From Jiangella ureilytica (GTDB lineage Bacteria; Actinomycetota; Actinomycetes; Jiangellales; Jiangellaceae): a DNA stretch of 41,576 nucleotides. Below are positions 39,586 to 41,576 of this stretch, in pieces (the stretch's first letter is position 1; each line of letters opens with the position of its first letter). The notes under the pieces were generated by a model. It made no database searches and had not been told where the DNA came from. It saw only the letters and a list, made by a program, of their open reading frames with translations. The stretch lies in contig NZ_SMKL01000055.1 in NCBI RefSeq assembly GCF_004348545.1, positions 1-41,576 of the forward strand, read 5' to 3'. A program made the translations under genes and the position numbers.

Positions 39586-40776
39586 TCACTTCAGCGGGCC
39601 GGCCGGCGGCGTCCCTGCCGGTTCCGCTCTCGGCAGCCGGTCGCCGAACGGCGGCTCGAGGGCGGGGTCGGAGCACGATCCCGTCATGTCGTCGGCGGTG
39701 ACGGTGAGCCGCGGGAAGACGTGGTCGCCCCACGGGTTGGGCTCGGTGAACGACGTGCCCATGAAGGCGCCGTCCGCGCACCGCTCGGTCCAGCCGAGGT
39801 CGACGGGGTTGCCGTTCTGGTCGTAGAGCCGGACGTTCTCGAGCAGCGTGCCGTCGGAGCCGTACGGGAAGATGTTCGTGACCTGCACGCCGTTCACGTC
39901 GTGGAAGCCCGGGCCCGGGTCGTCGTAGCTGTAGCCGCCGTCGACGTACTGCACCCGGTCGCCGGCCACGAACCCGGCCGCGGTCGTCGCGACCACCAGG
40001 CCGGCGATGGCCAGCGCGGCGTTGCCGACCTGGACGGCGAGCAGCCGCGTTCCTCGGATCTCGCCCGCCGCCGTCCGCCGGCCCAGCCAGACCGAGGCGA
40101 CCACCGCCGCCAGGAACACGGCGACCCCGAGTGGCGCGCTGCCCAGCACGAGCGTCGTCACGAGCCCGAACGCCGCCGCCCGCGCGATCCACCAGGCCGG
40201 TCGGAGCGACGTGACCACCTCGATGGCCGGCCGGCCCCAAGGCATGCTGCGCACCCACTCCTCGACCTGGGCCAGGATCGGCGCGGTCGGGATCTGCCGC
40301 AACTCGGCGACGGGGTTCTCGCGCCCGGTCACCAGCAGCAGCGCGGCTGTCACGGCGACGACGGCGGCGACCAGCGCCGGCGCCGCGAACACCTCCGGCG
40401 AGCCGCTCAGCCCGAACAGCGTGTCGACGAAGGCGAGCGCGCCGAGACCGACGGCGCCCCAGCCGAACGCCGCGACCAGGAACCGCACGAGCCGGCGCAC
40501 GAAGCCGGTGCGCACCGGCTCCGGCGCGGGCGTCGGCTTGGGCAGTCCGGCAGCGGCCCGCAGCTCCGCCGCGTACGCCGCCGGCGCGCCCAGCCGGTCG
40601 ATCAGCACGCCGACGGTGACGTCGTCGCCGTACTCGGCGGCCACGTGCTCGAGATGGTCGCGGACGTCCTCGGCGATCTCGGCGAGCTCGTCCGGCGGCA
40701 GGTCGCCGAGCTCGTCGCGGACCGCGGCGACGTACGTCGCGACGGCCGGGTGGGCGGTGCGACGCGTGGTGCTCAC
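39586..40776 (-). CDS. HAAS/DUF1700 domain membrane protein
   Basis: A 396-residue membrane protein. The N-terminal HAAS domain (about 8-75) reads AVATYVAAVRDELGDLPPDE, EDVRDHLEHVAAEYG and LIDRLGAPAAYAAELRAAAG, typical of partners of PadR regulators. After a Pro linker come helices at about 98-116 and 128-147, a soluble segment, then three more between 193 and 270. The C-terminal 120 residues are extracytoplasmic (YVDGGYSYDDPGPGFHDVNG, YDQNGNPVDLGWTERC) with two Cys. GTG 40776 overlaps the PadR stop (GTGA), so the pair is translationally coupled. Function unknown; HAAS proteins are thought to take part in envelope signalling. It ends 4 bp from the convergent aldehyde dehydrogenase gene. Confidence 0.85.
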   Translation of the reverse strand: MSTTRRTAHPAVATYVAAVRDELGDLPPDELAEIAEDVRDHLEHVAAEYGDDVTVGVLIDRLGAPAAYAAELRAAAGLPKPTPAPEPVRTGFVRRLVRFLVAAFGWGAVGLGALAFVDTLFGLSGSPEVFAAPALVAAVVAVTAALLLVTGRENPVAELRQIPTAPILAQVEEWVRSMPWGRPAIEVVTSLRPAWWIARAAAFGLVTTLVLGSAPLGVAVFLAAVVASVWLGRRTAAGEIRGTRLLAVQVGNAALAIAGLVVATTAAGFVAGDRVQYVDGGYSYDDPGPGFHDVNGVQVTNIFPYGSDGTLLENVRLYDQNGNPVDLGWTERCADGAFMGTSFTEPNPWGDHVFPRLTVTADDMTGSCSDPALEPPFGDRLPRAEPAGTPPAGPLK

Positions 40777-41108
40777 GCTGCCTCCTTCGTGGCGGTGTCG
40801 ACCAGGTCCGTCAGCACCCCGGCGAACTCGCGCCAGGTCTTGGCCGACCGCCGCAGCAGGTCGCGGCCGGTGCCGTTGAGGCTGTAGTACTTGCGATGCG
40901 GGCCCTCCTCCGACGGCACGACGTACGTGGTCAGCGCGCCGGCGTGATACAACCGGCGCAGCGTCCCGTAGACCGATGCGTCGCCGACCTCGGTCAGCCC
41001 GGCGTTGCGCAGCCGCCGCACGACGTCGTAGCCGTAGCCGTCCTCCTCGCGCAGCACGGCGAGCACGGCGAGGTCGAGCACACCCTTGAGGAGCTGACTG
41101 GTGTCCAT
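40773..41108 (-). CDS. PadR family transcriptional regulator
   Basis: A 111-residue winged-helix repressor. It shows the PadR pattern: LLKGVLDLAVLAVLREEDGY, GYDVVRRLRNAGL, SVYGTLRRLYHAGALTTY and GPHRKYYSLNGTGRDLLRR, followed by a short dimerisation helix. ATG 41108 is preceded by a purine-rich ribosome site (GGAGAGAGGAAG) and matches the family start; the longer frame to 41135 lacks support. It is the first gene of a two-gene operon with the HAAS protein. A TAGTGT -10 box (41134-41139) and a palindrome just upstream suggest autorepression. Confidence 0.93.
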   Translation of the reverse strand: MDTSQLLKGVLDLAVLAVLREEDGYGYDVVRRLRNAGLTEVGDASVYGTLRRLYHAGALTTYVVPSEEGPHRKYYSLNGTGRDLLRRSAKTWREFAGVLTDLVDTATKEAA

Positions 41109-41133
41109 GGTCTTCCTCTCTCCTGTGCGCGCC

Positions 41134-41153
41134 ACACTACTGCGCGATGCGCA
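41134..41153 (-). promoter_or_regulatory. padR promoter -10 with adjoining palindrome
   Basis: On the minus strand 41134-41139 reads TAGTGT, a good actinobacterial -10. Directly upstream, 41141-41153 is TGCGCGATGCGCA, with 5-base arms around GAT, inside the -35/-10 spacer. It is a plausible PadR autorepressor site but lacks the ATGT-N-ACAT form of well-studied PadR operators. Confidence 0.45.
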
Positions 41154-41204
41154 CTACCGCGGATGCGACACGCGTGTGCTCCACCGTCGGGTGCCTGCTG
41201 GCGG

Positions 41205-41323
41205 GTCGTCTTCACCGGCGAAAGTCGTCTTCACGAGCGCGAACCGTCTTCTGAGTCGTGGGCGGGGTCGCCGAGGACGGCCGGCGACAGTGAAGACGGT
41301 CGGCGTGAGTGAAGTCGCGGCGC
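41205..41323. repeat. Symmetric array of six 19-bp repeat units
   Basis: CGTCTTC occurs at 41207, 41226 and 41245; its complement form occurs as GAGGACG, GAAGACG and GAAGTCG at 41273, 41292 and 41311. Every neighbouring pair in each half is exactly 19 bp apart, and all three left-right pairs are centred on 41262. The four clearest units share CGTCTTCAC (one as CGACTTCAC), usually with a GCG or CGC in the spacer. The array fills the gap between the padR promoter and the lipoprotein promoter, so a multi-site operator is the simplest idea; relic ends of a mobile element are an alternative. Confidence 0.75.
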
Positions 41324-41367
41324 CGGGAGAACTCTCCTCGCCTCTGATCTCGGCTGACCTGCGCTCG

Positions 41368-41373
41368 TAGGCT
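41368..41373 (+). promoter_or_regulatory. Putative -10 box of leaderless lipoprotein gene
   Basis: TAGGCT, six bases, then ATG at 41380. Confidence 0.5.
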
Positions 41374-41379
41374 CGGGAC

Positions 41380-41576
41380 ATGCGCGGACGCGGGGTTCTG
41401 CTCACGGCCGGGGTCGCGGCCGCGGCGGTCGTGCTCGCGGGCTGTGCGGGCGACGACGGCGTCAGCGTTCCGTCCGCACCACCCACCTCACCGGCGACGG
41501 CGACGACCGGCACGCCGGCGCCGTCACCCACCCCCACGCCCCCGCCGGAGCCGCCGCCGTCGCCGGTGAGGTGGGT
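41380..41576 (+). CDS. Putative lipoprotein (3' end cut by window edge)
   Basis: The first 65 codons of a lipoprotein precursor. The signal peptide MRGRGVLLTAGVAAAAVVLA ends in the lipobox LAGC, with C22 as the lipidated residue cut by LspA. After CAGDDG the visible part is a Ser/Thr/Pro-rich linker (PSPTPTPPPEPPPSP), typical of wall-spanning lipoprotein stalks. The functional domain lies beyond the window, so no role can be given. ATG 41380 is supported by TAGGCT six bases upstream. The symmetric 19-bp repeat array lies directly upstream and may regulate it. Confidence 0.8.
   Translation, partial: MRGRGVLLTAGVAAAAVVLAGCAGDDGVSVPSAPPTSPATATTGTPAPSPTPTPPPEPPPSPVRW

Follow-up and report, generated by a model that had tools for sequence, protein, structure and literature searches.

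What kind of DNA site consists of short cores set in mirror symmetry between two genes? The window, that is, the whole 41,576-nucleotide stretch from Jiangella ureilytica that was analysed, holds such an array in the 272-bp spacer between a padR gene and a gene that we take to encode a lipoprotein, judging by its signal-peptide-like start with a cysteine. On either side of position 41262, the cores follow each other in exact 19-bp steps, and all three left-right pairs share this centre (Table 1). A sequence-only reading had described three plus three identical cores in this layout. The geometry stood but the exactness did not, as four of the six cores are exact and the other two carry one mismatch each. 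We randomised the spacer under a dinucleotide model; none of the 1,500 versions reached the six mirrored cores of the real spacer, 1,499 of them scoring 0 and one scoring 4. Tandem Repeats Finder independently called a 19-bp period in the right half (41276-41314), and an Rfam scan of 40700-41576 at the gathering threshold returned no match. The array lies between the start codons of the two genes, in agreement with the earlier claims that it is intergenic and that coding constraint is not its cause; its geometry points to a sequence-read site. The mirrored 19-bp array in the window is real and ordered.

Table 1. Features of the mirrored array and of the genes beside it (positions in the window)
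Feature	Position	Strand	Details
HAAS-domain protein gene	39586..40776	-	Neighbour, downstream of padR; Pfam PF22564, E 3.3e-08
PadR-family regulator gene	40773..41108	-	Left neighbour, outside the element; Pfam PF03551, E 1.2e-16; ATG 41108
Outer left unit	41207..41225	+	Exact core CGTCTTC at 41207-41213
Second left unit	41226..41244	+	Exact core CGTCTTC at 41226-41232
Innermost left core	41245..41251	+	Exact CGTCTTC, then TG, as in many G000/G001 centres
Centre, 21 bp	41252..41272		20 bp in most G000/G001 copies; sequence varies among copies
Innermost right core	41273..41279	-	CGTCCTC, one mismatch
Right unit	41280..41298	-	Exact core CGTCTTC at 41292-41298
Outer right unit	41299..41317	-	Core CGACTTC at 41311-41317, one mismatch; variant common in G001
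Presumed lipoprotein gene	41380..41576	+	Neighbour, truncated by the window/contig end; ATG 41380; G001 orthologue is a 365-aa ORF

The array belongs to a repeat family. In the source genome (G000), the pattern CGTCTTC-N12-CGTCTTC with at most one mismatch gave 85 matches (34 exact), compared to none for the reversed pattern. These matches fall in 17 places on 15 contigs, apart from a single match at G000:C87, which lies in no cluster and was omitted from the locus counts. The number of places may be as low as 14, because some arrays at contig ends, such as L022 and L025 with their common match to L070, could be opposite ends of a single locus. The G000 arrays are intergenic but for overlaps with two marginal ORF calls of 71 aa and, by a few bases, with one gene call at a contig end, and no array overlapped a better-scored gene at the 47 loci checked with our own gene caller. 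Periodic CGTCTTC arrays were also found in further Jiangella genomes, where the sequence-only reading had advised looking for them. With a tighter pattern, the carriers were five of the 12 genomes of the genus (56 matches in G000, 73 in G001, 38 in G010, 14 in G009 and 8 in G002); G004 and G005 had one match each, and the other five had none. A class-wide scan gave matches in 15 of 393 genomes, seven in the genus and eight elsewhere with a single match each. The strict pattern retrieved 29 stretches from a genome-contig collection. Five were from Jiangella (four from J. muralis DSM 45357 and one from J. rhizosphaerae), and the other 24, with one match each, were treated as chance. The carriers do not form one clade in a four-fragment tree with some weak nodes, and the distribution over the genus is patchy.

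To describe the arrays, we fetched 57 loci; G002 was left out of the locus statistics. Ten loci had no scored centre (four at contig ends, two split by insertion sequences and four others) and were excluded from the comparisons of halves, shared positions and orientation. Six more had no gene call on one side, which left 41 for the orientation count; spacing and dialect counts use all 57. The unit profile, built from 238 units, was CG(T/A)C(T/C)(T/C)C(A/G)(C/A)T(A)(G/C)C(G)NN(A/G)(G/A)C. Same-strand units within 80 bp were spaced by 19 bp in 110 of 130 cases, the remainder being mostly multiples of 19. Opposite-strand neighbours within 80 bp were head-to-head in 48 of 48 cases from four species, and none was tail-to-tail. 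The offset from the last plus-strand unit to the first minus-strand unit was 53 or 54 in G000 and G001 (72, one unit further, in three cases) and 42 or 43 in G010 and G009 (62, one unit further, in three G009 cases); the exceptions were one G009 copy with 53 and one lower-scoring G001 copy with 43. The difference between the two species pairs is 10 bp, about one DNA turn. In G000 and G001, the innermost cores frequently have the form CGTCTTCTG...CAGAAGACG, with a variable stretch of 16-17 bp between them. The half-arrays of these two genomes range from 1 to 19 units, and the two sides of a copy frequently differ in length (2 and 19 units, for example). The fixed part of an array is its centre, and copies differ at their outer ends, both in the number of units and in their sequence.

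The fixed spacing and the conserved core suggest that the units are read by some protein. According to our model, the window array is one copy of a dispersed, noncoding, palindromic mosaic element of Jiangella, which a DNA-binding protein acting in trans would read as a boundary; we see the chances of this reading as about evenly balanced. The units are probably read by a putative DNA-binding protein at the ends of transcription units. Each 19-bp unit would be bound by one protomer of this putative sequence-specific protein, supplied in trans, with a dimer across the centre and further protomers extending outward. At transcription-unit ends, the bound array would form a two-sided boundary, either as a transcription roadblock or as a supercoil sink. 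A two-sided role of this kind has reportedly been proposed for the BIMEs of E. coli. Copies would be gained by some dispersal route and would then grow or shrink through unit duplication. This candidate protein-lattice boundary is, we infer, the best mechanism on offer.

We compared the six loci shared by G000 and G001. Identity was 156/168 in the cores, 68/108 in the spacers and 77/120 in the centres (Fisher p 1e-9, core versus spacer), a core conservation that is partly ascertained because the loci were found via core matches. Unit positions 8 and 9 take different letters in different species. Among units scoring at least 16, G000 had AC in 118 and GA in 4 of 122, and G001 had AC in 56, AA in 23 and GA in 19; G010 had GA in 11 and AC in 1, and G009 had GA in 12 and AA in 4. 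At three of the six shared loci, AC in G000 corresponded to AA in G001 in both halves, and a fourth locus differed in one half. In G001, the letter at position 9 is uniform within a locus, across both halves. These dialects could be explained by co-evolution with a trans-acting protein, the alternative being gene conversion within loci.

The history of individual loci bears on whether the element has any host function. Comparison of the 17 G000 places with the 26 regions fetched from G001 showed that six of the former occupy the same intergenic position in both genomes. At L016, the array is common to G000 and G001, and the spacer measures 27-79 bp in G003, G005, G006, G008 and G010; no array was seen at this locus in G002, G004, G007 and G011 (379-653 bp). 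The L020 spacer is 403 bp long in G000 versus 7-30 bp in nine of 11 relatives, and in G002 (172 bp) and G006 (1,022 bp, seen in part) it holds other sequence. At another locus, arrays are present in G001, G009 and G010, and the stretches read there from G000, G002, G005, G007 and G011 show none. Some array positions are common to species, and others are lineage-specific gains. Gains such as L020, with which the padR locus fits, could also mark a selfish or neutral miniature element without host function, copied by a transposase in trans and keeping its cores because the transposase reads them. The patchy spread over the genus tree and the composite nesting with other palindromic modules also speak for such an element, which we nevertheless consider fairly unlikely. 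The Y1 tyrosine transposase domain (PF01797; RAYT type), the only transposase family covered by our search, was found in none of the 12 genus genomes, with a control search positive in 5 of 14 known genomes. Moreover, the outer ends are unconserved, no target-site duplication was recognised by eye at the two gain sites, padR and L020, and the six shared positions have been kept between G000 and G001 with their cores largely intact. Mobilisation by a RAYT was rejected, given the absence of the Y1 transposase from the 12 genomes.

To place the arrays relative to genes, we classified the spacers by the orientation of their flanking genes. Of 41 arrays, 22 were between convergent, 15 between tandem and 4 between divergent genes, compared to 7, 28 and 26 of 61 control spacers (convergent enriched, p 5e-6; divergent depleted, p 3e-4). 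The controls were spacers of at least 100 bp from the fetched stretches and the window, with genes called by a simple script of our own and not by a published gene finder; the window copy, which is divergent, is outside the 41. Where the flanking genes are in tandem (15 loci), the half towards the upstream gene was nearer the consensus (24.9 versus 21.7, p 0.002; G000/G001, n=9, p 0.03; G009/G010, n=6, p 0.06), in a post hoc comparison of copies that are not all independent. By a simpler core count the halves differed little (13.33 versus 13.13 of 14). The bias hints that the transcript, or the direction of transcription, matters.

Both the convergent enrichment and this bias are arguments for a two-sided terminator that would work through RNA. 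Transcripts arriving from either side would read the C-rich strand CGUCUUCAC..., on which Rho could load, or the entire array could fold into a single long hairpin. Folding lends it some support, since the window array as RNA folds better than shuffles (z -4.4), with a similar value for the L055 array (z -4.1). Furthermore, the first ten unit positions in G001 match between halves at 0.941, versus 0.856 for shuffles. Most of this comes from position 9, which agrees equally along one side (inner versus outer units); position 8 matches between halves (p 0.03) without a match along a side, which is a weak sign of pairing and also favours a terminator. However, left and right inner spacers match no better than shuffles (within versus between loci, 0.549 versus 0.547, p 0.50, in G000; 0.586 versus 0.612, p 0.84, in G001), and halves can be as unequal as 2 and 19 units. 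A hairpin within a single unit was not detected either (mean MFE of 76 units, -0.90 versus -1.45 when shuffled). The arrays lie 26 to 856 bp from called genes, the window copy sits between divergent genes, and we know of no requirement of Rho sites for a strict 19-bp lattice or a fixed centre. A terminator of this kind is distinctly unlikely in our view. On balance, double-stranded recognition is favoured over a stem, and we continue with the protein-bound boundary as the preferred reading.

In transposons of the Tn7 or Tn402 type, each end holds transposase sites as direct repeats, and the ends of Tn5090/Tn402 have 19-bp TniA sites. The array, with 19-bp direct repeats in two opposed halves, head to head, resembles two such ends abutted after the loss of a transposon, and paired ends of a lost element had been among the initial suggestions. 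This origin found little support and is very improbable: the conserved, fixed part is the centre and not the outer ends, each side has 1 to 19 units, the centre distance is repeated across dozens of loci, and the arrays have no transposase or cargo of their own. The IS4/IS5-type or IS110-type transposase genes inside three G001 arrays (L051, L052 and L053) look like later insertions. Read by eye, the IS4/IS5-type copies in G001 arrays sit at CTAG within a unit.

Although the spacer is divergent and holds six cores, a cooperative operator owned by the adjacent padR or lipoprotein gene, another early suggestion, is scarcely credible, since padR is present in 11 of the 12 genus genomes and its spacer, read in all 11 (in G000 and G005 a contig end truncates the flank), showed the array in G000 alone, unrelated genes flank the identical layout elsewhere, and 22 of 41 arrays lie between convergent genes. 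G001 keeps both flanks of the padR locus, with a short spacer. The expectation that the array would persist where its flanking genes do failed at padR and held elsewhere, at the six G000 loci whose position is shared with G001. In other species, the orthologous padR and L055/L075 spacers contain other palindromes (CCCATGATCATCAA, TTGATCTTGGAGTAATC, GTCACCTGATC and TTTGCAATGAGCACC). A replication or segregation site had also been considered. Ten of the 26 fetched G001 array regions lie within less than 7% of the chromosome (G001:C1:3.03-3.50 Mb), near neither dnaA (1.925 Mb) nor its computed antipode (about 5.5 Mb), and a parS- or matS-like site clustered at origin or terminus was rejected on this one genome.

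The interspersed palindromes best known from bacteria are hairpins, and RAYT transposases are linked to many of them; BIMEs bind gyrase, IHF or Pol I. BIME/REP sequences are described as short palindromic intergenic repeats of many copies, commonly forming head-to-head dimers, located between convergent or unidirectional genes and combined with other repeats (PMC3733652), and are reported to be targets of insertion sequences (PMC1525189). The Jiangella arrays are likewise dispersed extragenic palindromes of many copies, with the same preference for convergent positions (22/41 versus 7/61 by our own gene caller). However, a REP unit is a 20-40 bp palindrome by itself, whereas the 19-bp Jiangella unit forms no hairpin; the palindrome is produced by two arrays of direct repeats that face each other, and no RAYT-type domain was found. 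The arrays are best read as BIME-like in kind and new in build, a palindrome made of opposed direct-repeat lattices. CGTC-tagged REPs are described, in the relevant part of their report, as hairpins with a stem of 8-9 bp and a loop of 4-5 nt, next to a CGTC tag that stays unpaired; they are named from five phyla, and the word Actinobacteria does not occur in the main text (PMC3733652). The Jiangella unit also starts with CGTC, forms head-to-head dimers and has no dedicated transposase. Membership in that class was rejected, as the unit lacks an internal stem and a stem of 8-9 bp is required after the tag. Pneumococcal BOX elements, according to the passages on their structure, carry boxB units in one tandem array between different ends (PMC3049150). 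They share with the Jiangella arrays a composite intergenic build and tandem internal units of variable number, but the mirrored arrangement, in those passages, is absent from BOX.

Among search listings on bacterial interspersed repeats, miniature elements and Jiangella repeats, we found no description of these arrays, and the passages on repeats, palindromes and intergenic sequence in the J. gansuensis genome paper concern CRISPR. The Jiangella element stands apart in that its palindrome is built of opposed short-repeat lattices, with no RAYT-type domain found in the genomes, and in that species differ in the recognition letters even where a locus has kept its place. Should the dialects be tracked by a protein acting in trans, the arrays would offer a natural test of protein-site co-evolution and, likewise, of the role of boundary elements where convergent genes end.

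Arrays of a related design occur in another actinobacterial family. G033 and G055 carry arrays with a CTTCAC core and units of 19-21 bp, which occupy a single spacer in the 300 kb sampled from G033 and, in the 92 kb sampled from G055, form three clusters spread over two spacers. When pooled, CTTCAC cores gave 34 plus-to-minus pairs within 90 bp versus 5 minus-to-plus pairs, and 29 same-strand pairs within 60 bp versus 3 for the reversed core; the stretches were chosen around known matches, and the counts include chance matches in genes. Both genomes have arrays 3' of one common gene, presumably thiolase-like. The CTTCAC arrays are likely homologous to the Jiangella family. An earlier position of ours, that the family is confined to Jiangella, was withdrawn, as the arrays in G055 and G033 had been missed by the stricter pattern. 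That strict pattern matched no viral contig. A looser pattern matched two (IMG/VR; L263 8200-8560 and L264), which have in common an A+T-rich block with many head-to-head TCTTCAC repeats, and a unit-profile search of these two contigs gave no match; a viral origin was rejected on these results.

Within the genus, we found a second mirror family, whose units are 18 bp long (TGGTCTGCCGTCACG...) and whose halves are mostly offset by 69 bp. Its matches numbered 55 in G009, 29 in G001, 31 in G010, 3 in G011, 2 in G008 and 1 in G004, with none in G000 and the other five genomes; a control pattern gave one match, in G004. The two Jiangella families (19-bp CGTCTTC and 18-bp TGGTCTGCCGTCACG) and the CTTCAC form of another family differ in sequence and share this layout, so that at least two site families coexist in one genus; together they may represent a kind of chromosomal site, new to science and found in Actinomycetes, on which a protein lattice is built. 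Members of one family of DNA-binding proteins, whose paralogues would have changed in specificity, would coat head-to-head arrays of 18-21 bp units at transcription-unit ends, making two-sided boundaries of transcription or topology, and protein and site dialects would co-evolve genome-wide. We offer this wider proposal as speculative and rather unlikely.

The arrays of G001, G009 and G010 often adjoin other palindromic modules, notably a hairpin module of 130-190 bp. This module (TATCAGGGGGACGGGG arms; L055:2215-2400 in G001 and many other loci) often occurs in inverted pairs. It has matches in at least nine of the 12 genus genomes, and one copy has a DNA fold z of -8.5. The G001 copy had no match at any of the 17 G000 array loci, and a G009 copy had matches near three of these loci. 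L083 (2342-2432) and L145 contain what may be a third mirror module, with a unit of about TCCTGGGTGTGAGGCGCG. Finally, self-match offsets at L022:154-339 (G000:C144) indicate tandem repetition, with a period of about 17 bp, immediately next to an array.
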